Of a stretch of DNA of 64,000 nt, positions 5,053-24,629 are shown one piece after another. How positions within the stretch are numbered: the stretch's first letter is position 1; every line of letters starts with the position of its first letter. The notes below the pieces were generated by a model. It had not been told where the DNA came from and did not search any database. It saw only the letters and a program-made list of their open reading frames with translations. The stretch comes from Cavenderia fasciculata (Eukaryota > Evosea > Eumycetozoa > Acytosteliales > Cavenderiaceae), in assembly GCF_000203815.1 (NCBI RefSeq), contig NW_004457723.1:1612001-1676000 (forward strand), given 5' to 3'. A program made the position numbers and the translations under genes.

Positions 5053-7447
5053 TTAATTCTTTTTCCAAATTTTTGATAATCTTTTTAAAAAACCTATATT
5101 ATTATTATTATTATTATTATTATTTACTTTATCTTGATTTGATAATTTAAGTTGTATTGATTCCAAGTATTCTAAAGTGTAAACTTGGTTTACTTTGTGT
5201 ATCATATTCTTATCAAAGTGGGGTAGGAGATGAGATGGATCATTGAAAAGGTTGAATAAGAATTGAATACATTCGTATCTGACAGTAATTTCTTTTATAC
5301 ACTGTTCTCTTGATATTTCTTCAGCATTGCTGTGGTCATGTATGAATTTTGCCACCTCTATGTGTCCGTATTTAATAGAATAAACAAAGGTCATAGAGGT
5401 ACCTCTGTAATTTGTGTTGGTGTAGATATATTGGATGGATTTATAGTCACCAGATGCTGCAATAATATCGATGCAGTGGGGTGTTAGGTGACAACAATCA
5501 TGTTGGTGAAGGAATCGAATGATATGGTATGTAACTGGGTTGAACCTGCTCCTAATATTACGACAAAGAACCTTCACATACTTTTCAGTGTTACCTCGGA
5601 AGACATTGTTGTCTAGACTGTACAAAAACGATACAATCTCGAGCGATGGTGTCCCTCGTACAACCAAGTCTCTTAGAGCCTCGGGGTTTAGAAGTTCTCG
5701 GTATTGGTCGAGAACCCAAACCAACATGGAGAAATGTGAGTTGTCGATCAACTCTAGCACACATTTACCAATAAATTCATTCGAGAGTGGATCCTGTATT
5801 TTGTCATTATGATCCTTGACGAGTGGAGAAATATCCTTGAACGTTTGGAATCCAAAATAACCCATCATCCAGGTCATAAGTTCCATGTTGCCTCTTTTCG
5901 CTACCAAAGCAAATAATGAATGACTATCGACCGATGGATTCCTGCTGTATGGTGTAAGATTATTTTCCAATAAATATTTTGCTACTGAACTATAGTCTCC
6001 CTAAAAATAATTAATAAATTAATAAATTAATTCTTTTGTTTTTTCTTTTTTTTTTTTAATCTTATTACCTTTCCTTTACTACAAACAAAAGCAATTGATT
6101 GATCAGGTAAATCAAATTGAAGATTTTTAATCAAAAAGTCTACAACTTCAAGATGTCCGTTGATGGTAGCATTATGAAAAGTGGTAGAGTCTAGATAACA
6201 TGATGTTCTTTCCACAATGTACTTTACAAGATTTAAATGACCCGCCGAGCATGCAGCAGACATTGCCGATTCTGTGCATGGTTCTGATCTATTCTCGTGC
6301 ATGTAAGAATAAATATCCAAATATCCGTTACCTGCTATATATGACATTGTCGATGGATTGGTTGGAATGGTAAGTTGTTGTTCCAAATAAATGAGAATAT
6401 CCAAGTTGGCCATATAGTCAAAGGCAAACCCAGACACTGAATTCTCTCCAAATCGTGTGTAATAGAGTTTAACAAGGTCCAAAGAGTTTAATCGCACTGC
6501 AATGTCTACAAACTTGACATTCAACAATACCTCTCCAGGTAATAATCGCTTTGGAATATTATCTATCAATAATTTTGAAATATCATATTTATCTTTTAAA
6601 CTACCTTTACCATTTAATCTTGAAATAACAAATAAATTAATTAATTAAAATAAATAAAAAAATAGATAAATAAATAAATAAATAAATAAATTATAATTAT
6701 AACTTACATATTTAATAATGCAATAGTTTTGAACTTTAAAGATGGATAATGTTTGAGTAAATATACAACAATGCATGTATGACCATTAAAACAAGCAATT
6801 TCAAAGGCATTTTGAGTGATTTTAATTTTATGGACGGTGTTTAGATAGTGGAGGATGTGTTCATGGCCATACTCGCATGCCATCAATGCAGTGGCTGCAG
6901 AGGGAAGGATACCCAGCTCGTTGACGACGTACTCGAGACACTCTAGATTACCACCTGCAGCGATATTATGAGCAAACCAAAAAGGTGAGCCTGTGCAATC
7001 CTTGCTCGTTTGGTCAGGCACATCATTGGTTTGGTCAACCTGATCGAATATGGTCAATGAAAGTGTATGACGAGGGTAGAGAGGAAACCTCCTAACTATC
7101 TCTTTTAGTATCTTTACATCTCTACAGTGTCTAAGAATAGATGGTACTGCTTTAAATGCCAATATAAAAGTATCATCATGTTTTAGTTTTGAATACAATA
7201 ACTTTAAACTTCTTTGATTAAAGTTGTCTTTAGACTTTTGATCATTATCATCATCATCATTATTATCATGTGATGACCTAAGATCTACTTTAAAATATGA
7301 TACTATATAACTTGGAAGAGATTGAAAACTATGTTTGGGTTGATTGAAGCTGATGGTTGCATGTATCTCTGGTATTGATTGAAATATCTTTCTAACTATA
7401 ACCTTGTTACCAAATACAAATTGAAAGGTTCTATAATCTACTGACAT
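5053..7447 (-). CDS. Dictyostelid ankyrin-type repeat protein (three exons)
   Basis: Three minus-strand exons, 7447-6708, 6618-6069 and 6000-5053, join in frame through introns with GTAAG and GTAAT donors and AAG/TAG acceptors, giving 745 residues. The start is the ATG at 7447 (MSVDYRTFQFVFGNKVI), matching the usual family opening, a short 'FRNKYL'-like head before the repeats. Diverged ankyrin-like units recur, for example AAGGNLECLEYVV, ACEYGHEHILHYL, ACFNGHTCIVVYLL, ACSAGHLNLVKYI and ATINGHLEVVDFLI. There is no signal peptide or membrane segment. Length and architecture match the 747-residue protein at 22386-24629. A role in protein binding is inferred from the repeats; no substrate is indicated. 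The C-terminus has a short poly-Asn tract. Confidence 0.85.
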
Positions 7448-7643: not shown

Positions 7644-8336
7644 TTAGTAGTGGTCTTGTTTATTCTTCTTGTGATTATATCTATTCTTTTTTCCTCCACC
7701 TTGGTAGTTATTATTATTACTATTATTATTACGCTTATTATTATTATGAATATTGTTATTATTATTATTATCATTTTGATTGTCACCCATTGATTCTTGT
7801 TCGATACTATTTGTCTCTTCAGTAAATCTATTATTATTATTTTGATTGTTATTATTTCTATTAAATTTAATTGATCTATTATTGTTATTGTTATTGTTAT
7901 AATTGTTGTTGTTGTTATTATAATTATTTTGATTATTATGATGTTTATTGGTTGTATATGTTTGTTGATGGCTGTGATGTTGATGTTGATGTTGTTCAGC
8001 AGGTAATAATAATTTTCTAAGTTGATCTGGTATTAATTGAGGTCTCTTTTTGAGTGCATACACCAATCCACTCAATATAGCAATGTTACCTGCAACGGCA
8101 CTAAAGTATACATTCTTGAATGATTGTTTGGCTCGTTTGTGTTTGAATTGTTCCATGGCCCACATGCCACCGATCCAACCACCTGCCAATGCAGTCAATT
8201 GCAGTGTACTCTCTCTGACACGCCATTTATGTTGAATGGCTTGTTGCTTGTCATAGTAGAACATGTATGCTGCTCCTGCATTCACTCCTACTCCGTAGGT
8301 TGTAATGATTGCCATTGGTCCTTTTAATAGATTCAT
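7644..8336 (-). CDS. DUF1294 family membrane protein with low-complexity tail
   Basis: A single exon of 230 residues. Residues ~20-95 carry the DUF1294 signature: YYDKQQAIQHKWRVRES followed by GGWIGGMWAMEQFKHKRAKQSF, then a hydrophobic stretch. The family is a small membrane domain best known from bacteria, of unknown function. Residues ~112-230 are a His/Gln/Asn-rich tail (long Asn runs, ending in Lys-rich sequence), typical of dictyostelid expansions. It is transcribed divergently from the GGDEF gene at 9299, with about 960 bp between the two starts. The stretch 7446-7643 downstream is mostly AAT/ATT repeats. The domain call is firm; function is unknown. Confidence 0.8.
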   Translation of the reverse strand: MNLLKGPMAIITTYGVGVNAGAAYMFYYDKQQAIQHKWRVRESTLQLTALAGGWIGGMWAMEQFKHKRAKQSFKNVYFSAVAGNIAILSGLVYALKKRPQLIPDQLRKLLLPAEQHQHQHHSHQQTYTTNKHHNNQNNYNNNNNNYNNNNNNNRSIKFNRNNNNQNNNNRFTEETNSIEQESMGDNQNDNNNNNNIHNNNKRNNNSNNNNYQGGGKKNRYNHKKNKQDHY

Positions 8337-9298
8337 CTTTCTCTCTTTCTCTCTCTATCTAATTATATCTATCCTATCCTCGCACTCACACTATTTCTCT
8401 TTTTATATAAAGTAAGTACTTTGGTTTGTAGTAAGTATCTTTCTGAACAATAGAGATTTGATTTACATTGTTCAAAGAAGAACTTCTCATTAAAAAAACG
8501 AGCGAAACATGATCGATCTCAAACATACAACAATTCATTTAAATTAGCATTACTCTTAATCTCTTATACCAAAAGAAGCAACAAACAAATTCTCGTCATC
8601 TCTAAGAGATATTCCCTCTCCTCTCTCTCTATATATATATTACCACACACGATCAGAGTAGATTAAATTTGAACTTAACACACAATTGTATAAACACCGC
8701 ACCCTCCTTATTTTTTTTTGTCTAATAAGTTTGGTGGTGTGTATTTTAAAACAACAACTCATCAATGTCAATGATCACCAATCATTAAAGTCGTTGTTGA
8801 CAGTTTTGAGTAAAGGTATCATTATGCACACCGGTGGTAGTAGATATATATCATCATCGGCCAGCATAGCAGATCATTTTAACAATTACACAATTTCATT
8901 CATTCGATCATTGGTATCATCAATCACTACTACAGATATGGATACCATTTCATTCTATTCTTGATCAAACATAGAAGTAGTTTAAATATGGTAATCACTG
9001 ATCATTGGAATATTATCATTTACCAAAGCGAGAAGATGCTTAAAAATGGTAATCATTGGTATGTTTTCATGTACCCAAAACTAGAACATGTTTAAATAAG
9101 GTAATTAAAATGATCATCTATCAGTTCCACCGATAATTATTAATATTGATGCCCATCCTCTTTTCATGCAACCGTTTAGTATAAATAGAGCAATTTTCGA
9201 TTCATTATTTAAATCACAAATCAAACAATCAACAGTTTAACAACTAATTAAATTCACAACAACTACCATACACACTAATAATAATAATAATATTAAAA
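8337..9298. promoter_or_regulatory. Divergent intergenic region; 5' flank of GGDEF copy 1 (duplicated)
   Basis: From about 8560 this stretch is shared with 20525-21235 upstream of GGDEF copy 2, with small indels that are not multiples of three, so it is non-coding. It holds repeated short elements (GGTAATCA, TTTAAATA-GGTAAT) and a TATA-like AGTATAAATAGAGC near 9179-9192, about 110 bp before the ATG, conserved in both copies. The high conservation may reflect shared regulation or simply recent duplication. Confidence 0.5.
9179..9192 (+). promoter_or_regulatory. TATA-like box of GGDEF copy 1
   Basis: AGTATAAATAGAGC lies about 110 bp before the ATG. The same motif precedes copy 2 near 21117-21130, where the base after GAGC differs. 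Position and sequence fit a core promoter; inferred from sequence only. Confidence 0.45.
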
Positions 9299-10285
9299 AT
9301 GGCAATTGAAATCATCAACTTTAACCAACTCATCCAAAGACAATCTTCTTTGGATAGATTCCCAACCACACTATTCCCAACCAACTATTTCTACATTGCT
9401 TTTTGTATCATTGTCTTCCTATACACCATCCAAAAGCGTGACAAGAAGTCATCAAGTCGCTTTATGGAAATACTCTCATCCAATCAATCAATAAGTATTT
9501 TAGAAATCAACTTTAATAACCGTATTGTCAGAACCAATAATAGTTCAGTATCACTCGAACAATTCTGTCAATCATACGTCATCGATTCAATCACCCTCCA
9601 AAACAACATCATCTCATCAATGAATCAATTCTCTCCAAGTGACGTACAAATCAAGAGCAAGAGCTGCTCTTCATACTATCGTCTCACTGGAAAGTACGAT
9701 GCTTCGACCAATGTCTTCCAAGGAATCATGATTGACAACACTCAAGAGAAACAACAACTCAACAAGCTCAAGAACACCTTGACTCACGATGCACTCACCG
9801 GTCTCCAAAATAGATACCATCTCAACAACAAGATCCAAAAGTTTTGTGCCAAGTCTTCATCAGAACAATGCTCAATCTATTTCATTGATCTCAACAAATT
9901 CAAACAAATCAACGATACCCACGGACACGACAATGGTGATGTTGTCCTCAGATCAGTTGCCGATCGCTTCCAACAATTCGCCGACGAATCAGTTCTCCCA
10001 GTCCGCCTTTCTGGCGACGAATTCCTCATTGTCAAGCGCAATGTAGAATCAAACACACAAGCTGACCAATTTATCTCCAGCTACCTCTCAAGTGTCCAAT
10101 GCGACACTGTCCAACTCAACAACTCAACGTCAATCAAAGTAACTCTTTCCTTTGGAGGTGTTGTATTCAACAAATCACAATCAACTCAAACCGATAAGTT
10201 GATTAAATGTGCCGATGAAAGAATGTATCAAATGAAAAAGAACCTTTTACCAAACGGCAACTCTACCGTTACCTTTACTGCTTAA
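9299..10285 (+). CDS. dgcA: GGDEF-domain protein, probable diguanylate cyclase (DgcA-like), copy 1
   Basis: A single exon of 328 residues. One membrane segment lies at about residues 29-46 (FYIAFCIIVFLYTI), followed by a ~100-residue region and a GGDEF domain at about 155-320. Visible motifs are LTHDALTGLQNRYHL, the metal-binding FIDLNKFKQINDTHGH and the signature RLSGDEF, in which Ser replaces the first Gly. There is no RxxD product-inhibition site before the signature. Family members make cyclic di-GMP from two GTP. In Dictyostelium, DgcA and c-di-GMP trigger stalk-cell differentiation, which suggests the role here. A near-identical paralogue lies at 21236-22201. Relative to it this copy has in-frame N-terminal insertions (IQRQSS against QRQS, plus TTLFP), consistent with selection to keep the frame. 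The symbol is given by family resemblance. Confidence 0.85.
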   Translation: MAIEIINFNQLIQRQSSLDRFPTTLFPTNYFYIAFCIIVFLYTIQKRDKKSSSRFMEILSSNQSISILEINFNNRIVRTNNSSVSLEQFCQSYVIDSITLQNNIISSMNQFSPSDVQIKSKSCSSYYRLTGKYDASTNVFQGIMIDNTQEKQQLNKLKNTLTHDALTGLQNRYHLNNKIQKFCAKSSSEQCSIYFIDLNKFKQINDTHGHDNGDVVLRSVADRFQQFADESVLPVRLSGDEFLIVKRNVESNTQADQFISSYLSSVQCDTVQLNNSTSIKVTLSFGGVVFNKSQSTQTDKLIKCADERMYQMKKNLLPNGNSTVTFTA

Positions 10286-10467
10286 ATTAATAAATATTAA
10301 ATAATAACAAAAAAAAAAAAAGTAGTGTACTTTTTTTTTTCTAAACACCTAAAATACTTGTCTTCTTTATTCTTTTTATATTAATTGTGCCAATAACAAA
10401 GTGACTTTCATAAAAGTAAAAACCAATTATTGTTGACGCCCTCTCTCTCTCTAGTTTGTTCTGATTT

Positions 10468-10509
10468 ACACCCACTATCTTTTGTTTGCAAAATTGGTTT
10501 TTTTTGCAA
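10468..10509 (+). repeat. Left terminal inverted repeat of the pogo-like element
   Basis: It starts ACACCCACT and ends GGTTTTTTTTGCAA. It matches the reverse complement of 12656-12697 along 42 bp except for three adjacent positions after ACACCCACT (ATC here, TGT in the other arm). Confidence 0.85.
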
Positions 10510-10674
10510 TGAGTAATTTAATTTCTTTAAGTCAAACATCTACTATGGCAGTTACGGGTAGTAGTTGGAGTACAAGATTAAAATAAATAATAGAAAAGTT
10601 TTTTACAGCAAATGAATGTCATTATTATATTCAGCACATATATATAGATATTATTGGTATAAGATAAAGTCAAA

Positions 10675-12595
10675 ATGGAGGAATTAGCAAGCACAAAGCA
10701 AGATCAGAAACAGGTGTATGGAGAGATTTTAGGTGTTTTAACAGTCTTTTGGGAATGTAAATCAGGGCTAACATTACAAAAGGTCTTGGTGAGAGAACAA
10801 AAGGAGCGATTGGAAGCATCTGTGATGCTTACACTAGAGCACGGGGAGATTAGCAACAAAAATATTAGCTTCGTTTTGGGATTAGAAGAATATGAAGTAT
10901 CAGGGGCACTAAAGAAGAAATCTATAGTACCTCGCCAAAAGACACTTACACAAGAGGAAGAGGAAAAGATAATAGCCAAGATCAAGATATCTATTCAGCA
11001 GAATAGACCTATGACAAAGACAGATGTCAAGATTTTGGCACTCAATCTCTGGAAAGAGTGAACGGGCACAAAGAGAGAAAAGATGCTGTCAGACTCTTGG
11101 TGGAGAGGTTTTAGATCGAGATACGTAGATCTCAAGCTTAGATATGTTCGCTCTCAAGATTATAAAAGGGCACTTGCTGAACAAAAAGGTGGTTCTGACG
11201 CATGGATCAAGGAAACTAGAGATTTCATAGTAAAACATGGTATCAAACAAGAAAATATATTCAACATTGATGAAAAGGGAGTTCTCTTCACAGATACTAA
11301 ACAAAAGGTAACTATAGACAGTAGTGATTATACACATGCAATTGATTAGAGTTTACTAATAATTCAATGTCTTTGTCACAGGTTGTCATGTTTGTTTATA
11401 AAAATGCAAGGGAGACACTCAAACCAAAAGTTTTTAAACAAACTCAGTCCCAACACTTTACATTGGTAGGAGGAATAACAGGATTAGGTGGTAGTCTAAA
11501 GCCTTATTACGTTTTGCAGTTTCCAATCAAAAAGAATTGGTCCATTACTAGTAAAAATGAATATGGCTATCTGGAAGTTAATAAGAGTGGCTATGTAAGA
11601 TGATTTTTTAAAAATTTTCTTTTTCTACAAAATCTAAATATTATAATTAATTAACACACTCTTGTCTATAACTAATCGTATATAGGTAGATGAGTCAATC
11701 AAGCTAGACTGTGTCCAATTTTTTGTTAAACAGCTGACAACACCTGGCGACAAGTTACTTTTGGTCGACAATCATGGAAGTAATTTTAGTCCTGAATTAC
11801 TTCAATGGGCCAATGAAAACAAGGTTCACATTAAGAGCTTTCCATCCAATATGACACATATCTTACAACCTTTGGATCTTGTCATTTTTTCATCATTCTC
11901 TCAATCACTAAAGAATATGATACTAAAACAACTTCAAGACAAACCCAACTTTAAAATCGCACCCGAACACTACCAACAGTTTTCATGCTTTGCATGGGTC
12001 GAAGCAACAAAGCCAACCAACGTAATGGCTGCTTGGAACAAGTCAGGTATCATTAATTGTTCGCCACTCTCACCACAAGATCAGGGATTGATACCAAAAC
12101 CACCCAAGGCAACAAAAAAATCTTCAAAGGCTCTTGCTCTTGTTCAAACCACTTCTAATGCATTGGTAACGACAGATTCTTTACCACACAAGCAAAGATC
12201 AATGATGATGAGAGATAAGATGAGTACAGGCACTGTCTGGACCGACGACACAAATCGGTATGTTTAAACGATAACAACTACTACCCATTTTTTACTAACC
12301 TAATTTTCATTTAAATCAAAGAGACTTGGTTATTCATTATAAAAAAGAGACACGAAAGAGAAGACAGCCAAAAAAATCAGACTCTGGAGATGTTAACCTG
12401 AGCCAAGTTAACAATTATAACACCTTTAACCAAATTAATGTGGCTACCGGCGAAATGCGAGATGAAAATAATAGACCAGCTAAAAGAATAGCCTATGAAA
12501 GCAATACCAACTCATCATCCCAACTGTCAACCACTATTCAAAATCCTTCCTTAGTCTCTTCCGTCAAATCCCTATTTAATAAATTCTTGCATTGA
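10675..12595 (+). pseudogene. pogo-family (CENPB/DDE_1) transposase, one in-frame stop
   Basis: Proposed exons: 10675-11307, 11382-11594, 11686-12257, 12322-12595; all junctions are GT-AG and stay in frame. The N-terminal part has a CENPB-type helix-turn-helix: LTQEEEEKIIAKI, then MTKTDVKILALNL. A TGA at 11059-11061 interrupts exon 1; reading through it continues with TGTKREKM and WWRGFRSRY as the family expects. The DDE_1 catalytic region has the three Asp in FNIDEKG, LLVDNHGS and THILQPLD, with 35 residues between the second and third. The C-terminal tail is Lys/Asn-rich. The intact frame elsewhere points to a recent lesion, stop readthrough or a sequencing error. Confidence 0.8.
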
Positions 12596-12655
12596 ACTGT
12601 CTTCCCCCATATTCCCCATATAAATTGGGTCACCCCAAACTTTTTATTTTCCTCT

Positions 12656-12697
12656 TTGCAAAAAAAACCAATTTTGCAAACAAAAACAAGTGGGTGT
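12656..12697 (-). repeat. Right terminal inverted repeat of the pogo-like element
   Basis: It reads TTGCAAAAAAAACC and ends AGTGGGTGT. It is the reverse complement of the left arm with three mismatches; the A and T homopolymers have the same length (8) in both arms. Confidence 0.85.
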
Positions 12698-13439
12698 TAA
12701 CTAGTGTACACAATTATCATGGTTGGACCATTGAGCTAAAGAGTTGATGCACACTCATCTTCTCTCCTCTTAAGCAAGCAAGCAAGCAAGCAATCAATCA
12801 ATCATGACAGCACCACATAGTTGAACTGAACTTGCAACACACACTCTGCTGCTGCTGTGCTTAGTGCACTCGTTTGTTAGAGTGTGTGTCAGTGTGTGAC
12901 AGACAGCCAATGAACATCAAATTTAATTGGGTGTGTTCATTGCATTCCCCTTTTTAGTCAAACTCGTTCAAGACGACAGACTGTGAGACGTGCAACCCCC
13001 GCCACCCACAAACTCATCATCATCCAGCAATGAAAATTAATTATGCGTATCAGATATATATAAACCCCCCACTACCCACACTAACTAATATTAAAAATAT
13101 TTAAATAATTACCGAGTGTTTCTTGGTATACCCTAACCAACCTGCTCACTCTCTCATACTCTATACTTATCCACTGATCATCCACTTTATTTCTTTTATG
13201 AAACTTGTTTCAAAAATCGTATGATATACAGATAATAATAGTGTCCTACTATTATCTCTCTCTCTCTCTCTTTTACTTCTCTATACTCAAACTCTTAAAC
13301 TTTAATTAACCATTTAACTTTCTCTTATTTTTTATTTTTTTTTCCATCTATCTATAGTCTTAAATCAACACAATCATTACTACTACGACCTATCAACAAT
13401 CAAAAATCAAATCATATATTTTACATTCATTATCCAATC
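12698..13439. other. Intergenic stretch without a gene
   Basis: Contains tandem AGCA/ATCA tetranucleotides near 12774-12803, GT/CA-rich runs (12880-12905), a C-rich patch near 12995-13010 and CT-rich tracts near 13255-13275, then an AT-rich leader before the ATG at 13440. I see no ORF or RNA gene. Confidence 0.6.
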
Positions 13440-16335
13440 ATGAACCCATTAATTATCATCTTTATTTTGTGTATCGTTGTATCATCTGTTTTTGCCAATA
13501 TGTCTTGCAACAACCAATATGTCTTTGTCAACGACACCAACTCATTGTCATCATCTTTTTCATTGTTCAACCATGTTGAGCAACAATCGACTATCATCCA
13601 AAATAACAATATTTCTTTGTCTATGATGCCATCATCCGTTTCATTGCCATCTTTTAATCATTTTGAACATCCAATCATTCTTATCAAAAACAAAAACAAC
13701 AAAAACAACATCAACTACAACAACAATAATAATAATAGCAATAATAATAACGATATCCATTCATCTATTTCACAAACCCAATTTGATTCAAATCATATTG
13801 TTTCTCAATGTCATTTACCATCAAACCATACTTTTATTCCTGTCTATAACAACAAAAATAATAATAACAATAATTTATCTTTTAATTCATCAATTTCAAT
13901 TCCTTTTAATGTTTTGTCCCAATCCCATTTCCAGTTACCATTAAATCACTCAACCAACAACCATATAATTTTCTATGACGACAAAGAGGAGGAGGAGGAA
14001 GAGGAAGAGTATGTTCAATGGAACAGCAACAGCAGCAACAACACAATCTCATGTTTCAACCATGTTAAACATCAATTAATTTCCATCAACTATCCATTGC
14101 CAATTAGTAGTTTTCCATCCTTTTCACACAACATTCACTATAACTCAAGCCATGTTTTGTGTATCTCAAATCATTCAACAACCAAAAACCATATTGTTTT
14201 AGAGGAGGAGGAGGAGGAGGAGGAGTCTGTTCAATTGAACAGCAACAGCAATACAATCTCATTTTCATATTTCAACCAATCAATTCCCATCGATAATAAT
14301 AATATTATTTCATTCCTCAATGTCCATCAATCATCGATTCCATGTTTTAAATCTAGTGATATTTTAACTCATTCAACAACAAACAACCACATTCTTGTAG
14401 AGGAGGAGTTTGTTCAATTGAACAACAGCAGCAAAATCACACATTCATTAACTTGTTTAGACAATGTTAAACATCAATCAATTCCAATTAGTAATCAATC
14501 AAATAATAATAATAATAACTATTTTTCATTAATTCATTCATCATCATTGAATTCACCTATTCCATTTTCATCTGATTATTTTAACTCTGCAAACACTTCC
14601 ACATCATCATCATCAACATTATCAAATACAATCAATTCAACAAGATCAAAGACAAGCCCATTTTCAAGATACTCCAGCAACATCTCAAGAATAGAAAACA
14701 ACAACAACGCGGTAACAAGCTCTGACAATTTAAACCAATTTACTGATACCTCTTCTTTTATTTTTATAGATACCAAAGTTGCCAACAATTATTTTGATTC
14801 TCTCAATTGTTTCGGAACCAATCATTCAAATCATACAATAATACAACAATCATCATCACCAATCAATCATCATACAATCCTCACCACAACCCACACTCAC
14901 AATCAATATTCACAAATCACTCCACCATCTTCAAATAATAATAATAATTCCTATTCATTTATTCACCCATTATTATCCATTAATACAGATTTTATTGTGC
15001 CCCAATGTCAATCACAACCATTAATTTCAAATTACTCAACAACCAACAACCTCATTCTTTTAGAAGAAAGGGAAAAGACTGTTCAATTGAACAGCAACAA
15101 CAACAACAACACAATCACAATCTCATTGTTCACCCATGTTGAACATTATTCAATTCATAATAATAATAATCATAATATTTCTTTCCATCAATTAAGTGAT
15201 ACATTATATCAAAGTCAATGTCAATCCAATCATACATTCTTTCCTATCAACAATAATAATTATAATTTATCTTTTCATCCACAGTGTCAATTCCTTTTAT
15301 ATATGTTTTGTCTCAATCCATGTCACCCATTCCATTAAACTCTAGCGATGTTTTGTTTCATTGTCAATCACCAAATCATTCAACAGCCACCAACAATTTT
15401 AATTTAGATCAGGAAGAGTCTGTTCAATTAAACAGCAGCAGAAATACAATCTCATTTTCATATTTCAATCAATCAATTCCCATAGATAATAATAATAATA
15501 ATATTTCATTCTTCAATGACCATCATCATCGACTCCATGGTTTAAATCTAGTGATATTTTAACTCATAGTCAATCATCATTGCCACAATTAATATTAAAC
15601 CATTCAACAACCAACAACCACATTCTTTTAGAGTTTGTTCAATTGAACAGCAACAGTAGCATCACAAATTCATTAACTTGTTTAGACCATGTTAAAAACC
15701 AATCAATTCTTTTTAATAGTAATCAATCAAATAATAATAATAATTATTATTCATTAATTCATTCATCCATTTCACCTAATCATTTCAACTCATTCTCATC
15801 ATCAAACACATCATATATATCAAATATAATCAAATCAACAAGATCAATTGCAAGCCCATTTAAATCAAGACACTCCAACATTTCAAGATTAAAAAACAAC
15901 CCGGTAACAAATAACAATAATAATACCAACACCAAATTAAAAAATACAAATATCAACAATAATAATAATAACTATGCCAACAACAACTCATCATCATCAT
16001 CATCATTCTCATGCTTCAACCATGTTGAAACATTCATCTCAACCAACAATCAACCAAAAAATATTAATAATAATAACAAAAATAATAACAAAAATAACAA
16101 AAATACAAAAACAAATATTAATAATAATATCAACAACAATAATAACAAAAATACAAAAACAAATAACAACATCAATAACACAAGAACAACAAACAATAAT
16201 AATATTATAATCTTTGCCGAACACTTCAACCCACAATCAATCATTCATTCATCACCAATCCTCAAGTCAGTTGCCCGTCCCAAACCCAGTGATCAAGAGT
16301 ACCAGTTTCCAAGCAACAATCACCACCATTCGTAG
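13440..16335 (+). pseudogene. Asn/Ser-rich repetitive secreted protein gene with two 1-nt frameshifts
   Basis: It starts with a clear signal peptide (MNPLIIIFILCIVVSSVFA). The rest is Asn/Ser/His-rich with a recurring module: (N)HSTTNNHI, an acidic run, VQLNS, then CLDHVKHQSIPI or FNQSIPI. Copies start near 13937, 14168, 14368, 15033, 15370 and 15595. The frame runs 13440-15338, then continues in two other frames (15284-15562 and 15580-16335). Comparison with the paralogous internal repeats shows a 1-nt deletion near 15281-15290 and another near 15525-15535, so the 3' third is a frameshifted duplicate. A possible last intron is 16332-16413, ending at a stop near 16447. Function is unknown. 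It is either a decaying gene, or an intact one with sequence errors whose full product would exceed 950 residues. Confidence 0.6.
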
Positions 16336-16640
16336 ACCAACATAATTAACTCTGTATCAAAAGTTGATAATTAATTATAAATTTACTGACTCTTTTTCTT
16401 TTTATTTTATAGGTACACTAATCATTATTCTCTTCAACTCTTTTGGTAATAACAACATCTTAATAAAACAACTAATAATATTAATAATAACCAACCACAA
16501 TAACTAATAATAATAATAATAACAATAATAACAACAATAACTAATAATAATAATAATGACAACAACCAACAGCAATAACTAATAATAATAATAATTACAA
16601 CAACAACAACCACCAATTACAATCCTCTTCTTTTCTAAAA

Positions 16641-16876
16641 AAAAAGATATTCAATTACTTTTACCCAAGTGGTTTCCCTCTATTCCTACTCTTTTCTTTT
16701 TATACATTTTCCGTTGCCATCGTCCGTGCCCAGTCCAGTCCAGTCCAGTCCATCATCGTCCATCCATGTTCCACGTCTCCCTAGGCTTTTATACCCAAAA
16801 AAGATATTCAATTACTTTGAACCAAGTGGTTTCCTTTTAAAAAGATATTAAATTACTTTTACCCAGAGGGTTTCCC
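16641..16876. repeat. Three ~37-bp direct repeats with (CCAGT)n between them
   Basis: Copies at about 16641-16678, 16797-16835 and 16838-16876 share AAAAAGATATTCAATTACTT, then (T/G)AcCCAAGTGGTTTCC. A CAGTC tandem lies at about 16730-16752. No protein or known mobile element is recognised. Confidence 0.65.
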
Positions 16877-16877
16877 A

Positions 16878-16967
16878 GGTTCGCCCCCGTGTAAGTCGAT
16901 TTTCTTCGCATTGGGGGGCTTTTTTTTTTTTTGGACTGTTCCCATGGTCTAAACAACCATGGGAACA
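16878..16967. other. Two adjacent hairpins, the first followed by a T-run
   Basis: A short stem GCCCCC/GGGGGC (about 16883-16919) is followed directly by a run of about 14 T. Then comes a 12-bp perfect stem with a 7-nt loop at 16937-16967 (TGTTCCCATGGT and ACCATGGGAACA). The stem plus T-run resembles the end of a small RNA transcript, but no RNA family is recognised. Confidence 0.4.
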
Positions 16968-18183
16968 ACCAAAACTATATTTTTCTATTTCTTTCTTTCT
17001 CTTTTTTCTCTTTTTCCCTCTCTTTTTTATTATTTTTTATTTATTTATTTATTTATTCTTTTACCGCCAATTCAATATTATTTTTCTGACGATTTTAAAA
17101 TTAATTAAACCATCATCAGAATTGTAATAATTATTATTTGTAACAAATATTTGTGACACTACAACTGTAGCAATATGTGTCTTTATAAAGGTATGCACCC
17201 AAAGATGGTTTATGGGTTTGTAACTTTAATTTATTAAAATTAACACTTTTAAAATAAAAATAAAATAAAAAAGCAACCACACCACTTCACCAACTCTGAC
17301 TTTTTGATCAGACCTTTATTATTTTATTTTTCTTGTATTTATAAATATAATTAATGACTTGTTACTCACAACATATCAATATATACTGATACATATAACT
17401 ATAGATAGAAAAGATGATACGAATAAATAAATAAAGACTGTTTTTATGTGCACTATCTATTTCTTACAATCATTATTTAGCTCCATCATCCCCCAACTAT
17501 TCCTCGTGACACATCCTCTATAGTCCATTGCCCATGATCCACAATCATGCCTAGTACAACCATCATCCACCACTGGTGGAAAATCAAGAAAGTATAAAGT
17601 CTTATTGTGACAGATGAATTTTATAATGTTTTAGTTAGTATTGGAATCGATTGATCAAGATAGATTCTTCACAAAGGAAATAATATTAATATTAATTTAT
17701 ATTATTTTAAATATATTTAGTTATTTTAGAGACACCAGCAAATTACTATGTTGATACGTGATAGATTAAGGATTGCGGATTGTATATAGTGGACCCAGGC
17801 CGATGTCTGCCATCCTCCACCATCATATACCATCTATCAATCAATCATCTATAGTCCATCCACTATCCATGGTAGACTATAGTCGTCCATCTTTGTCAAT
17901 CTCAGCCACCATTGTACATATTCAACAATAGTCCAAGTGGAAAATCAAGAATGCATCATGTTTTATTAATATCGATGGTTCAATGCATTGGAATGATGGA
18001 TCAATTAAATAGAATCACAATAGTCCAACTGTGGATATCGTATTATTATTTGATTTACATCAGCAATGGACTCTTGTAGATACAGTACATTTTGATTATA
18101 ATCATTGTTTAATACAAAGAATCCAATAAACTTATAGAAATCTTTAAACTACAATTCAATCTAAGACTAAAATTTCTATCTAT
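16968..18183. other. Gene-poor AT-rich stretch
   Basis: No ORF of note. It contains homopolymer and TTTA runs near 17020-17060 and a short element GTGGAAAATCAAGAA repeated near 17578 and 17938. Scattered CCATC words increase towards the minisatellite that follows. Confidence 0.55.
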
Positions 18184-18948
18184 TTCCACCATCCACTATC
18201 CATCTTCTATCCATCCATCCACTAACCTCTATCCATCCGTCCTCATCCATCCATCCTCATCCAACCATCCTCTATCCTCTATCCATCCATCCTCTATCCT
18301 CTATCCAACCATCCTCATCCAACCATCCTCATCCATCAGCCCTCTTCATCCATCCGTCCTCATCATCTATCCATCCGTCCGTCCTCATCATCTATCCATC
18401 CTCTATCCTCTATCCATCCATCCTCTATCCACCATCTTCTATCCAACCATCCTCATCCAACCAACCATCCTCCATCCATCCTCTAACCATCCGTCTTCAT
18501 CCAACCAACCATCCTCCATCCATCCTCTATCCACCATCTTCTATCCAACCATCCTCATCCAACCAACCATCCTCCATCCATCCTCTATCCATCCGTCCTC
18601 ATCCAACCAACCATCCTCTATCCATCCATCCTCTATCCATCCATCAGCCCTCATCCACCATCCTTCTTCATCCATCCGTCCGTCCTCATCCATCCATCCT
18701 CTATCCACCATCCACCATCCACCATCCCTATCCATCCACCATCCGACCATCCTCTATCCATCCAACCACCATCCTCTATCCATCCACCATCCGACCATCC
18801 TCTATCCATCCATCCACCATCCATCATCCATCCACCATCCACCATCCACCATCCATCCTCTATCCTCCATCCATCCACCATCTACCATCCATCCTCTATC
18901 CATCTACCATCCATTCTTCCACTATCCGCCATCCACTATCCATCATAG
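18184..18948. repeat. C/T-rich minisatellite of CCATCC/CTATCC/CATCCAACC units
   Basis: About 765 bp is built almost only of CCATC, CTATC, CCATCCT, CATCCAACCAACCATCC and CCACCATC words. The plus strand is nearly free of G, giving extreme strand asymmetry in an otherwise AT-rich region. Higher-order copies (for example CATCCTCTATCCACCATCTTC near 18420 and 18523) show unequal tandem growth. Apparent Trp/Met/Gly/Asp ORFs on the minus strand are by-products of the repeat. Confidence 0.85.
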
Positions 18949-19684
18949 GTGCGGTACACCTTGCTTATCTTTTTTAGAGTCAACAATAATTAATTAATTA
19001 ATTATGTATTTTCTTTATAACAATTGATCAAATAGGATTATATTTAGGAAAGATTTGGATATAAAATCTTATTTCTTTTTCAACATCGAATCAATGATAT
19101 TAGATCGATTTCAAATTGTAGAAATGCTACATTGTTGTGTAGCTTGTCCACACGTTTGATGTTGGGGATGGTCGAAATGATATTAGACAATTTCTGGTGT
19201 ACTTGGGTTTGAATGTTATTACTCTCGGTTTTAATCCTTTAAAAAATAGATTGATTGATCTTCAAATTAATTTTCATCAATTGCAATGCAACACTCAAAA
19301 TATTATCACTATAGGATGCAACAATTGGTAAATGTTCCAATCCGAATCCTCTTACTATCAATTGATAATATTGAATTGTTTGATTTGTTCAACAATTGGG
19401 TATAATAATGGTAATTGTCTTCCACGAAGATGAATCATAGAAAAGATGAATTAGAATATTAAAATGGGATCAAATAAATTTTGAGGAAACCCTTTTAAAC
19501 TAAATCATTATTGGATCACCTAACCCAATAACTATACTAACAGTTCCCTTTACCGATATTTAAATTAATAGATAATAACAAAAAAAAAAAAAAGGTTATT
19601 TTTCAAACACCCTAAATACTTGTCTTGTCTTCTTAATTCTTTTTTTAAAACCAACTTGAACAAACAAATAATAATATTTTAATA
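18949..19684. other. Intergenic stretch; includes a third copy of the GGDEF 3' flank
   Basis: Positions 18949-19550 hold no gene I recognise. About 19560-19684 matches the sequence after both GGDEF stop codons: AATAATAACAAAA, a poly-A/T stretch, CAAACACCCTAAATACTTGTCTT, then AACTTGAACAAA. No GGDEF coding sequence precedes it, so it looks like a remnant of a further duplicate. Confidence 0.6.
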
Positions 19685-20149
19685 ATGTCAACAATCACAT
19701 TTCATTGTATATTCAGATCTAAATACATTAGACAAATGATATTCAATCATATTAATGATATATCAAAACAATTGTATCAAAGATCATTGGTAGGAAGAGA
19801 CATCATCAAATTACCTCTTCTTGAAATGATATCAATCTACGCAGTGCCGTGGGACTTTATTCGTCATTATCTACCAACTGATATTGATCAAATACAATTA
19901 AAAGGAGTGATCAGTAAATACTGTTGTCATGACAATGCAACATTGGATAAAGTCAAACATCTATTGGAGTGGTCTCACGTTGACTTTGATTGGGATCTCT
20001 TTAAAAGTAATGGTAGATATATACCAAATAAAGAGATACTGGAATATGTCATAGAGAGCTGTCATGATGATTTTACTAGCTTTGTCATACAGATAATGAA
20101 CACTCCTTTCAAACCTCTAGGTTACCAAATGGACACCATAATTAATTAA
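19685..20149 (+). pseudogene. Truncated dictyostelid ankyrin-family gene, N-terminal fragment
   Basis: 154 residues starting MSTITFHCIFRSKYIRQMIFNHI, the typical head of this family, then a region like the N-terminus of the 745- and 747-residue proteins in this window. It stops at TAA (20147-20149) after the head and has no repeat array; downstream 20150-20330 shows no continuation in any frame. The first ~50 bp of this gene also lie just after GGDEF copy 2 (22313-22362), so the pair GGDEF plus ankyrin head was copied together. It may be transcribed but is probably a remnant. Confidence 0.6.
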
Positions 20150-21235
20150 TATTAAAATCGTAAAGTATTTGCAGTACACAATGGTAAGAATTCTTCATGA
20201 AAATAGAAATAAATAATAACTGATAAAGATGTAAATAATAATCTGATATTAATTAAATCATTTGATTAATCATAATAGGAACAAACTAAAGCATTTCAAT
20301 CAATGAAATGAATAATGTTGCAAGATCGCCAAAATAGCTATATATATAATATTTATAAATTATATAACGACAAAACATGTTTCCTTTTGTCAAGATTTCC
20401 ATTTAGTCTTTAGATCTGGTATGTACCATCTTTTCACTTACAACAAACACTACTTTTAAAAGTACTCGAGTGACAATTAGTCAGTGTCAAGGTTCTGATT
20501 CGGTAATCGCATACTCTCAGAGTTTATACCAAAATAAGCAACAAACCAAACCATCATCTCTAAGAGAATATTCCCTCTGCTCTCCTCTCACTCACTATGA
20601 CCACACACGATCATATTAGATTTGAACTCAACACACACAATTGTATTAACAACGCCCCTCCTTATTTTTTTTTGCCTAAACAGTTTGGTGGTGTGTATTT
20701 TAAAACAACACTCATCAATGTGATCACCAATCATTAAAGTCGTTGTTGACAGTTTTGAGTAAAGGTATCATTATGCACACCGGTGGTAGTAGATTTATAT
20801 CATCATCGGCCAGCATAGCAGATCATTTTAACAACTACACAATTTCATTCATTCGATCATTGGTATCATCAATCACTACTACAGATATGGATATCATTTC
20901 ATTCTATTCTTGATCAAACATAGAAGTAGTTTAAATATGGTAATCACTGATCATTGGAATATTATCATTTACCAAAGCGAGTAGATGCTTAAAAATGGTA
21001 ATCATTGGTATGTTTTCATCTACCCAAAACTAGAACATGTTTAAATAAGGTAATTAAAATGATCATCTCCATCTGATCACCAACTGATGCCCATCCTCTT
21101 TTCATGCAACCGTTTAGTATAAATAGAGCTATTTCGATTCATTATTTAAATCACAAATCAAACAATCAACAGTTTAACAACTAATTAAATTCACAACAAC
21201 TACCATACACACTAATAATAATAATAATATTAAAA
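20150..21235. promoter_or_regulatory. Intergenic; 5' flank of GGDEF copy 2 from about 20525
   Basis: 20150-20524 holds nothing recognised. From about 20525 to the ATG it parallels 8560-9298 closely, including the repeated GGTAATCA words and the TATA-like AGTATAAATAGAGC near 21117. Frame-breaking indels against copy 1 argue against coding. Confidence 0.55.
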
Positions 21236-22201
21236 ATGGCAATTGAAATCATCAACTTTAACCAACTCCAAAGACAATCTTTGGATAGATTCCCAACCAA
21301 CTATTTCTACATTGCTTTTTGTATCATTTTCTTCTTATATACCATCCAAAAGCGTGACAAGAAATCATCAAGTCGCTTCATGGAAATACTCTCATCCAAT
21401 CAATCAATCAGTATTTTAGAAATCAACTTTAACAACCGTATTGTCAGAACCAACAACAGTTCAGTATCACTCGAACAATTCTGTCAATCATACGTCATCG
21501 ATTCAATCACCCTCCAAAACAACATCATCTCATCAATGAATCAATTCTCTCCAAGTGACGTACAAATCAAGAGCAAGAGCTGCTCTTCATACTATCGTCT
21601 CACTGGAAAGTACGATGCTTCGACCAATGTCTTCCAAGGAATCATGATTGACAACACTCAAGAGAAACAACAACTCAACAAGCTCAAGAACACCTTGACC
21701 CACGATGCACTCACCGGTCTCCAAAATAGATACCACCTCTACAACAAGATTCAAAAGTTTTGTGCCAAGTCTTCATCAGAACAATGCTCAATCTATTTCA
21801 TTGATCTCAACAAATTCAAACAAATCAACGATACCCACGGACACGACAATGGTGATGTTGTCCTCAGATCAGTTGCCGATCGCTTCCAACAATTCGCCGA
21901 CGAATCAGTTCTCCCAGTCCGCCTTTCTGGCGACGAATTCCTCATTGTCAAGCGCAATGTAGAATCAAACACACAAGCTGACCAATTTATCTCCAGCTAC
22001 CTCTCAAGTGTCCAATGCGACACTGTCCAACTCAACAACTCAACGTCAATCAAAGTAACTCTTTCCTTTGGAGGTGTTGTATTCAACAAATCACAATCAA
22101 CTCAAACCGATAAGTTGATTAAATGTGCCGATGAAAGAATGTATCAAATGAAAAAGAACCTTTTACCAAACGGCAACTCTACCGTTACCTTTACTGCTTA
22201 A
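21236..22201 (+). CDS. dgcA: GGDEF-domain protein, probable diguanylate cyclase (DgcA-like), copy 2
   Basis: A single exon of 321 residues. It is almost the same protein as copy 1 (9299-10285) from residue 40 onward; the only C-terminal difference I see is NRYHLYNK against NRYHLNNK. The membrane segment (FYIAFCIIFFLYTI) and GGDEF domain are kept, including FIDLNKFKQINDTHGH and RLSGDEF, so the predicted reaction is 2 GTP to cyclic di-GMP. The N-terminus lacks the small insertions of copy 1. The 5' flank (from ~20525) and 3' flank (to ~22290) are also shared, so the duplicated unit is about 1.75 kb. Both copies look functional. Confidence 0.85.
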   Translation: MAIEIINFNQLQRQSLDRFPTNYFYIAFCIIFFLYTIQKRDKKSSSRFMEILSSNQSISILEINFNNRIVRTNNSSVSLEQFCQSYVIDSITLQNNIISSMNQFSPSDVQIKSKSCSSYYRLTGKYDASTNVFQGIMIDNTQEKQQLNKLKNTLTHDALTGLQNRYHLYNKIQKFCAKSSSEQCSIYFIDLNKFKQINDTHGHDNGDVVLRSVADRFQQFADESVLPVRLSGDEFLIVKRNVESNTQADQFISSYLSSVQCDTVQLNNSTSIKVTLSFGGVVFNKSQSTQTDKLIKCADERMYQMKKNLLPNGNSTVTFTA

Positions 22202-22385
22202 ATTAATAAATATTAATTAACAAAAAAAAAAGTAGTGTACTTTTTTTTTTTCTAAACACCCTAAATACTTGTCTTCTTTATTCTTTAAAACAAACTTGAA
22301 CAAATAATAATATTCAACAATCACATTTCATTGTAAATTCAGATCTAAATACATTAGATTTAATTTGTTTGTTTCTAGAAAAGAT

Positions 22386-23572
22386 TTACATTATATTACA
22401 ATTTGATTGATAGCTTGCTTTCTTTTTAGAGTTGGCAAGAAGTGTTTTGGTATGTTTGGAAAAGTATTCTTTGAGAAAGAATCTAATGTCATCGCTGAGT
22501 GACTCTTGATTGAGTGCTCTAAAAGAGTCTAGAGAGAGGAATAGATCGTTTGGAGCGCACGGGAACAACTCTGGATTCTGGACAATGTAGAGGAGGGTGT
22601 CTACACGGTTGGCAAACACAAGGGCATGTACAATGACGGTAAAGGAAATATGAGGACAATGCTTGATGATGTGGTGGAGCACTTCTACACACGTAATCGA
22701 TTGAATGTCTGGATATACTTTGACAAAGTTGACATGTCTAAGAAACTCTAGTCTACAGTATTTGGTGGCTGCTGTAACCATGACTAAATTGGATTGATGA
22801 AAGTTTGGTAGGTAATCAATTAAAGAGACAAGTCCCTTTTTACCAATCAAACTGTAATGACTGTGACTAACCAACTCTAACTCTTGAACATTAAGTTTAG
22901 TGATAATATAATCGATTGCTCGATATCCTTTGTTTACCAAATTAATTCGCATCAAGTCTGATCCGTAGGCAGCGTGGTATCGATCGATTGATTTAAAGTC
23001 GGCATTGGCACATACACCCGACAAGAGATACTCCATCTCCAAGTTACGTACTCTTGCATCGCTGGTGTTGCCGTAGGCTAGTGCTTTGTTGGTCTGGTGA
23101 CTGTCAAATAAAAAGTCAAATGCCTCTCGAGTAACTTGGAAGTGTTGGTGGTCAATGATATAGTACCATGCACTCCACTCGAGGTTGCATAGCATCTTGA
23201 GCACCTCAAATGACACTACCTTTCCTTTAATCCGATCGATCAGACGAACAGCCTTGGTAGTCGCCATCTTGTACAACCAGTCTATAATCTCCAACGTCCC
23301 ATTACTCGCATCTCTCTTGCTTGCCAACCCAAATAACCATTGTATCTCTTCTCTATTAAATTGACATATATCATCAAAGGTAGTAGTAGGGTCAGGTAGA
23401 GAAAAACTTGTACGTTGTTCAATGTCTAGTTGATTAATCTTTTTTAAAATTGTGATGATTTGGTCTTTGGTACAATGTTTAAATAGTGCACCCAAGAATG
23501 ATCTCAGTTGTATCGATCCAGCTTGAGGGGATATTGGTGGTGCCAACGGTGGTGGATGTGGTAGTGTGTCAC

Positions 23573-23603
<31 letters not shown>

Positions 23604-24629
23604 GTTGTTGATGGGGACAGAGACATCGGGATACTTGGTATAAATAAGTTTGGCCAAATAATCAAGACTGCATCGATCCGGACCAAGTGTGCGTATCTCC
23701 AACTCTACCAAATTATTTAGAAAGAATGTTTTAGAGTATATCGTGATTAAATGATGATACACCAACTCTTCCAATAATAATGGCGACGACGACAAGTTGG
23801 GATGGAATTGTGCAAGTGACATTCTGATCACAGCAACCTCTTCTTGTTGGATTTTTGCAAAGTGACATGCCAACTCTACCCTCTTGTCCAACGAGTGTCT
23901 AGCAATCTCTTTTATAATCTTTTCATGTCCAAACTCTGTTGTCTCGCAAAAGGTGGTTGCCAAGACACCGCTAAACTCTTTAAACACTTGCATACATCCC
24001 AACCGATACAAAAAGTGTAACCAGTGTTTTCCATTCATTGACCGTGACACTGTAGCCGCTCCAAAGTGAGTGACAAACCAGTTAAACACCGATGCATCGT
24101 TTAGATGTGACAAACTAGACAATAGGATCTGCTCGACGATAGTACCATCCTTGTCACGTGGTGAAACACACTTTTCCTTTAATAGATAATCCATTACATG
24201 CAAATGTTTGCCTTTGGCAGCACCCACATAACATTTGTCGTCTAGGTTGAGTTTGGTTGGGTTTTGTTGTGCCACCAACAACTTGATAATCTCTAGGTTT
24301 CCAGCTTGACACGCCAATCTGATAAGATCATCCTTGTAGAATCGGTGTTGGTACTTGTCATAGACCACTCGAAACTGGTCATAATCAGACATCTTCTCGC
24401 ACACCAAATCGATTGCCTCAGCTGAAAAGTAGAGTGGACAACCACGACTAATCTTGTCAACTAGCAGACTATAATGGTTATGTGTCAAGATATCCTTTGC
24501 CTTGAACCAATCATCATAACGATTAAACTCTATAGAGTATTTTTCTAATTCTCCATGACTCTCTAAACTTGATAATATCCTCTTGAATAGATATCTATTC
24601 TTGAATACTTGATCAATTGAATTCATCAT
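22386..24629 (-). CDS. Dictyostelid ankyrin-type repeat protein (single exon)
   Basis: 747 residues in one exon. It starts MMNSIDQVFKNRYLFKRIL, the family head, with a second Met at residue 2. Diverged ankyrin-like units follow (ACQAGNLEIIKLLV, AKGKHLHVMDYLLKE and many weaker ones). A poly-Asn run followed by a Pro-rich patch lies at about residues 345-375. The tail is Lys-rich. There is no signal peptide or membrane segment. It converges on GGDEF copy 2, with the ends 184 bp apart. The role is unknown beyond probable protein binding. It is the intact counterpart of the fragment at 19685. Confidence 0.85.

Follow-up and report, generated by a model that had tools for sequence, protein, structure and literature searches.

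c-di-GMP is a bacterial-type signal and is rare in eukaryotes. In passages of an earlier review, DgcA of Dictyostelium discoideum was described as the stalk-inducing diguanylate cyclase, with c-di-GMP as the trigger of stalk differentiation, and single genes were given for Dictyostelium genomes (PMC4686194). In passages of another report, dgcA was described as single-copy in most Dictyostelia and as amplified to 13 genes in total in D. fasciculatum (PMC10559540), so that the amplification itself is already known in print.

In the present work, a window of 64,000 nucleotides from Cavenderia fasciculata (D. fasciculatum in the cited report) was analysed, corresponding to positions 1,612,001 to 1,676,000 of contig NW_004457723.1; coordinates without a contig label refer to this window. 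The genes described here are like DgcA of D. discoideum in being of the eukaryotic GGDEF cyclase type, and differ from it in that a single dgcA gene was described there (PMC4686194), whereas many copies, the function of which we infer, are present here. The 13 genes in print are equalled by 13 GGDEF places in this genome; the main text of that report is without an anatomy of the family (PMC10559540), for which eight full and five broken frames, blocks with ankyrin genes and a mosaic pattern of identity are described below. No prior account of broken copies or of gene conversion in this dgcA family was found in literature searches covering passages of papers. The counts of intact and broken copies, the arrays, the remnant of a third unit and the mosaic add to the printed account and are not a new kind of discovery. 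The GGDEF domain is also like that of the bacterial PAS-GGDEF cyclases (PA0861, DosC and PleD), both by sequence and by fold. Unlike these enzymes, the copies here have an SGDEF signature and a single predicted membrane helix, and have neither an RxxD I-site nor an EAL partner domain.

Extent and predicted product of the duplicated unit

Two units on the plus strand, spaced by about 12 kb and each consisting of an upstream region, a dgcA-like coding sequence and a 3' flank, were delimited by blastn against each other as unit A (8564..10375) and unit B (20524..22286), respectively, with 94.1% identity over 1816 aligned columns (E 0). In the original prediction, two units of about 1.75 kb with a common promoter, coding region and 3' flank had been proposed, and the blastn ends fell within about 10 bases of the coordinates claimed. 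The coding sequences of A (9299..10285, plus strand, 328 aa) and B (21236..22201, plus strand, 321 aa) were each recognized as an open frame with a match to the Pfam GGDEF profile PF00990 (4.6e-35 and 121.2 bits for A, 6.1e-35 and 120.8 bits for B, at a cut-off of 23.8), in agreement with the proposed assignment to a dictyostelid GGDEF gene of the DgcA type. The two proteins differ in two residues (V39F and N176Y) and by three in-frame indels. Past residue 40 of A, from which near-identity had been predicted, N176Y is the single difference, and V39F lies just ahead of that residue. As had also been claimed, the indels in the coding sequence come in threes (3, 3 and 15 bases) and those in the flanks are of lengths that are not multiples of three.

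The GGDEF domain covers residues 162-315 of A, with SGDEF at 238, and PF00990 was matched by all eight intact members of the family. The signature is SGDEF, not GGDEF, at all 13 places (the eight intact members and five other translations); SGDEF enzymes can be active. DESV was found at the position of the RxxD I-site, where DosC has RSSD, and RxxD is absent from the intact copies; this site is common in many GGDEF cyclases, not in all, and is no requirement for membership. In a model of protein A, which was of low confidence (mean pLDDT 56.7, pTM 0.49), a helix at about 28-47, a PAS-like mixed region at about 65-146 and a GGDEF fold were seen, and the helix is likely to be a membrane anchor, as predicted from the model. 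PAS-GGDEF proteins were the top Foldseek matches to this model (PA0861, 6.4e-7), and the GGDEF domain was matched by sequence to DosC (4zve, 4.4e-17). Pfam PAS was not matched in any of the eight members at E values of up to 1, and a close PAS relative is thereby made less likely. A and B are each probably a membrane-anchored diguanylate cyclase by which c-di-GMP would be made. A search for a bacterial donor, made with two peptide patterns as the only queries, led to 15 loci with 26-39% identity, and no donor is therefore named.

The dgcA family and its arrays with ankyrin-repeat genes

PF00990 was searched against the genome from which the window was taken (30,995,898 bases, 21 contigs), and 13 GGDEF places were found on five contigs (C1, C3, C4, C7 and C8), such counts being lower bounds. 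A full open frame is present at eight of the 13 (A, B, C4_354, C4_356, C4_375, C4_378, C3_1322 and the divergent C4_896), and the remaining five are broken or truncated. The frame is lost early in C3_2304 and late in C3_2296, C3_2370 has two frame breaks and C8_471 is 5'-truncated; C1_1692 (L015, C1:1692635-1693096) is an older copy with a good GGDEF domain and a frame split in the linker, for which decay or an assembly error is possible. An intron in C1_1692 was considered and rejected, because the linker differs in length by only several bases, less than an intron requires, and the copy was scored as a split frame. Identity over the coding span is 92.6-98.7% among ten copies, C8_471 being omitted from the matrix because its start is absent, and DNA identity is 93-99% among the seven recent intact copies; the older copies C1_1692 and C4_896 have 74-76% and 65-67% identity to the remaining copies, respectively.

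Selection was estimated from the ratio of changes. For the A/B pair, 11 synonymous and 2 non-synonymous changes were counted by NG86 (dS 0.058, dN 0.0026), and the probability of at most 2 non-synonymous changes among 13 without constraint was 1.4e-6, by which the constraint predicted for both copies was borne out. dN/dS was 0.03-0.26 in all 21 pairs of the seven recent intact copies. Private changes were 21 synonymous and 7 non-synonymous in these seven copies versus 5 and 10, respectively, in the three broken alignable copies (Fisher 0.011), C3_2296 alone being the source of 7 of these 10 non-synonymous changes.

The dgcA copies on C4, on C8 and at C3_2370 adjoin ankyrin-repeat genes which match one another at the DNA level, which indicates that dgcA and an ankyrin gene were duplicated together as blocks. 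Between A and B, the plus-strand stretch 19534..20062 contains the last dgcA codons and the 3' flank, followed by the start of the ankyrin-family partner gene, and was aligned with the arrays L009, L010 and L013 at 68-70% over about 600 columns. Its 3' flank alone matched that of unit A at 73.6% (E 5e-13), and a partner ORF fragment of 154 aa (19685..20149, plus strand) is 51.6% identical to the partner gene beside the C4 copies. By these matches, the stretch is identified as what is left of a third dgcA unit. Interpretation of A and B as an isolated recent duplication does not hold; both this 3' remnant inside the interval and the 13 places in the genome had been missed in the original prediction. 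The pair is a real duplicated unit, and a description as one duplication is too simple for two of 13 dispersed GGDEF places. L013 (C8:467500-475500) also carries a piece of an array that is truncated on either side, in which a fragment of a dgcA 3' end is followed by an ankyrin-type stretch and then by a fragment of a dgcA 5' end. Ankyrin-family genes with weak, sub-cut-off Pfam Ank scores lie on both outer sides of A and B (6027-7447 and 22386-24629, minus strand), and a gene with a DUF1294 domain (5.5e-20) and an Asn-rich tail is at 7644-8336 on the minus strand.

Downstream of unit A, a DNA transposon was recognized on the plus strand at 10469..12697 by its inverted termini (about 52 bp, 88%), a TA at each end and a DDE_1 match (1.8e-7). 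It separates a flank of unit A that is continuous at the C3_2296 locus, where a match to 12699-13999 (90.9%) follows the C3_2296 copy. From this comparison, the insertion is placed after the formation of the block common to A and C3. Since the C3_2296 locus is continuous without the transposon, A has more downstream flank in common with C3_2296 than with B; the coding region of A is nearest to that of B, despite this longer shared flank. The transposase frame holds stops and looks decayed. Long open frames rich in Asn and Ser and of low complexity extend over 13440-16335, and tandem repeats with a step of about 44 bp over 18231-18949.

Mosaic identity of A and B and its explanations

The differences between A and B were counted in mismatch intervals that were picked after inspection of the alignment. 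In the upstream region, mismatches were 28/196 (14%) at the 5' edge versus 5/343 (1.5%) in the core (Fisher 4.7e-9); the edge is rich in CT and difficult to align, and with 8564-8664 left out the contrast was 10/98 versus 5/343 (P 2e-4). In the coding sequence, mismatches were 9/226 in the 5' part (the first quarter) versus 4/740 in the 3' part (P 5e-4). There were also 8/54 mismatches at 9115-9179 and 8/89 (9%) in the 3' flank, and the internal tracts diverge by 0-2%. The core upstream region (8772..9114, plus strand, the 5 mismatches in 343 columns) is a candidate non-coding conversion tract, and the 3' part of the coding sequence (9546..10285, plus strand, the 4 mismatches in 740 columns, with 0 within 9840-10285) contains one or more candidate coding tracts.

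The same pattern might be left by a plain recent duplication, in which B was copied once from A and divergence became uneven through hot spots of mutation (CT repeats, indels) in 9115-9179 and at the edges. It would account for a unit-sized match with sharp ends and for the relationship over the coding sequence, where twelve sites private to A and B are scattered along the entire length, so that A and B are sisters throughout. The third-copy controls are without the same contrast, however: for A versus C3_2296, mismatches were 48/192 at the edge and 51/289 in the core (P 0.065), and 11/244 and 47/740 in the 5' and 3' parts of the coding sequence, respectively (P 0.35), so the core upstream region is not simply conserved family-wide. 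Within the coding stretch 9420-9544, A diverges from B (5.6%) nearly as much as from C3_2296 (6.4%), whereas in the 3' coding part the corresponding values are 0-2.5% and 5.6-7.4%. Order tests, for which no intervals were chosen, were run with C3_2296, C3_1322 or C3_2304 (three of the eight other recent full-length copies) as the third sequence, and an even spread of the A-B differences was rejected, with P <= 0.03 for the longest run and P <= 0.002 for the runs tests in 9/9 cases each. In a GENECONV-like test of the family, A-B had a P of 0.0095 as a pair and of 0.54 after correction over 45 pairs, the latter being on the side of plain duplication, and C3_2296/C3_2370 was the only pair to pass the correction (0.006). 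The identity of A and B in the tracts thus exceeds the third-copy prediction, with significance lost after the family-wide correction. We regard gene conversion between A and B as likely but unproven; a plain recent duplication is considered rather unlikely. The duplication originally predicted stands, and its recency is doubtful in view of the internal tracts against the edges; judged from this pattern, A and B probably resemble homogenized older duplicates, which look younger than their probable true age.

An assembly artefact, by which one locus or two alleles would have been placed twice, is hardly credible against the different outer flanks of A and B, the transposon after A only, the third remnant inside the window and the 13 dispersed family members, equal in number to the printed count. 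Spread of the copies as part of a mobile element, with which their dispersal over five contigs and the DNA transposon adjoining unit A might agree, is just as improbable and was rejected because the units are without shared ends: the match ends vary between copies, the units showed no terminal repeats in common, and the transposon arrived after the block common to C3 had formed.

The explanation that we favour, and hold to be likely as a whole, is that A and B both work, as paralogues within a lineage-specific dgcA family. The family would have grown by segmental duplication at the DNA level, promoter and flanks included, and partly as blocks with the neighbouring ankyrin-repeat genes, and the locus in the window would formerly have been home to at least three dgcA units. 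Sequence would later have been exchanged between A and B by gene conversion in the internal tracts, and both frames are preserved by purifying selection.

Upstream module and a possible role of c-di-GMP dosage

A module of 141 bp with imperfect repeats of about 51 bp was found upstream of A (8970..9110, plus strand) by genome-wide matches, and at 99% upstream of B (20919..21059, plus strand; C7:1632919-1633059). It is present at eight places in the genome, seven of which are upstream of dgcA copies (A, B, C3_2296, C3_2304, C3_2370, C3_1322 and C4_354), the eighth being about 3 kb upstream of C3_2370. In C4_378 the module is more weakly retained (74% over 85 columns), and C4_356 and C4_375 have ankyrin repeats at the site of the module. 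The stretch TATAAATA near the start is present in C4_375 and absent from C4_356. A structured RNA upstream of the genes was considered and rejected, since nothing in the entire window matched Rfam at gathering scores.

Several near-identical predicted cyclases would raise or buffer c-di-GMP output. No match to EAL, PilZ or HD_5 (HD-GYP-type) was obtained in a six-frame search of the genome, which an intron-split gene could escape, and with a genome of this composition synthesis might be the main determinant of output. It may be proposed, as a speculative and on balance improbable extension, that conversion and selection maintain the family as a homogeneous, multi-copy set because the dose of c-di-GMP matters in this species, and that C4_356 and C4_375, side copies from which the module has been lost, are under other control, so that a dosage set would stand beside re-wired copies. 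Work on this species must reckon with broken copies, with near-identical paralogues that are indistinguishable by short reads and with copies that have a different upstream region. Eight apparently intact predicted cyclase genes instead of one represent a natural dosage experiment.
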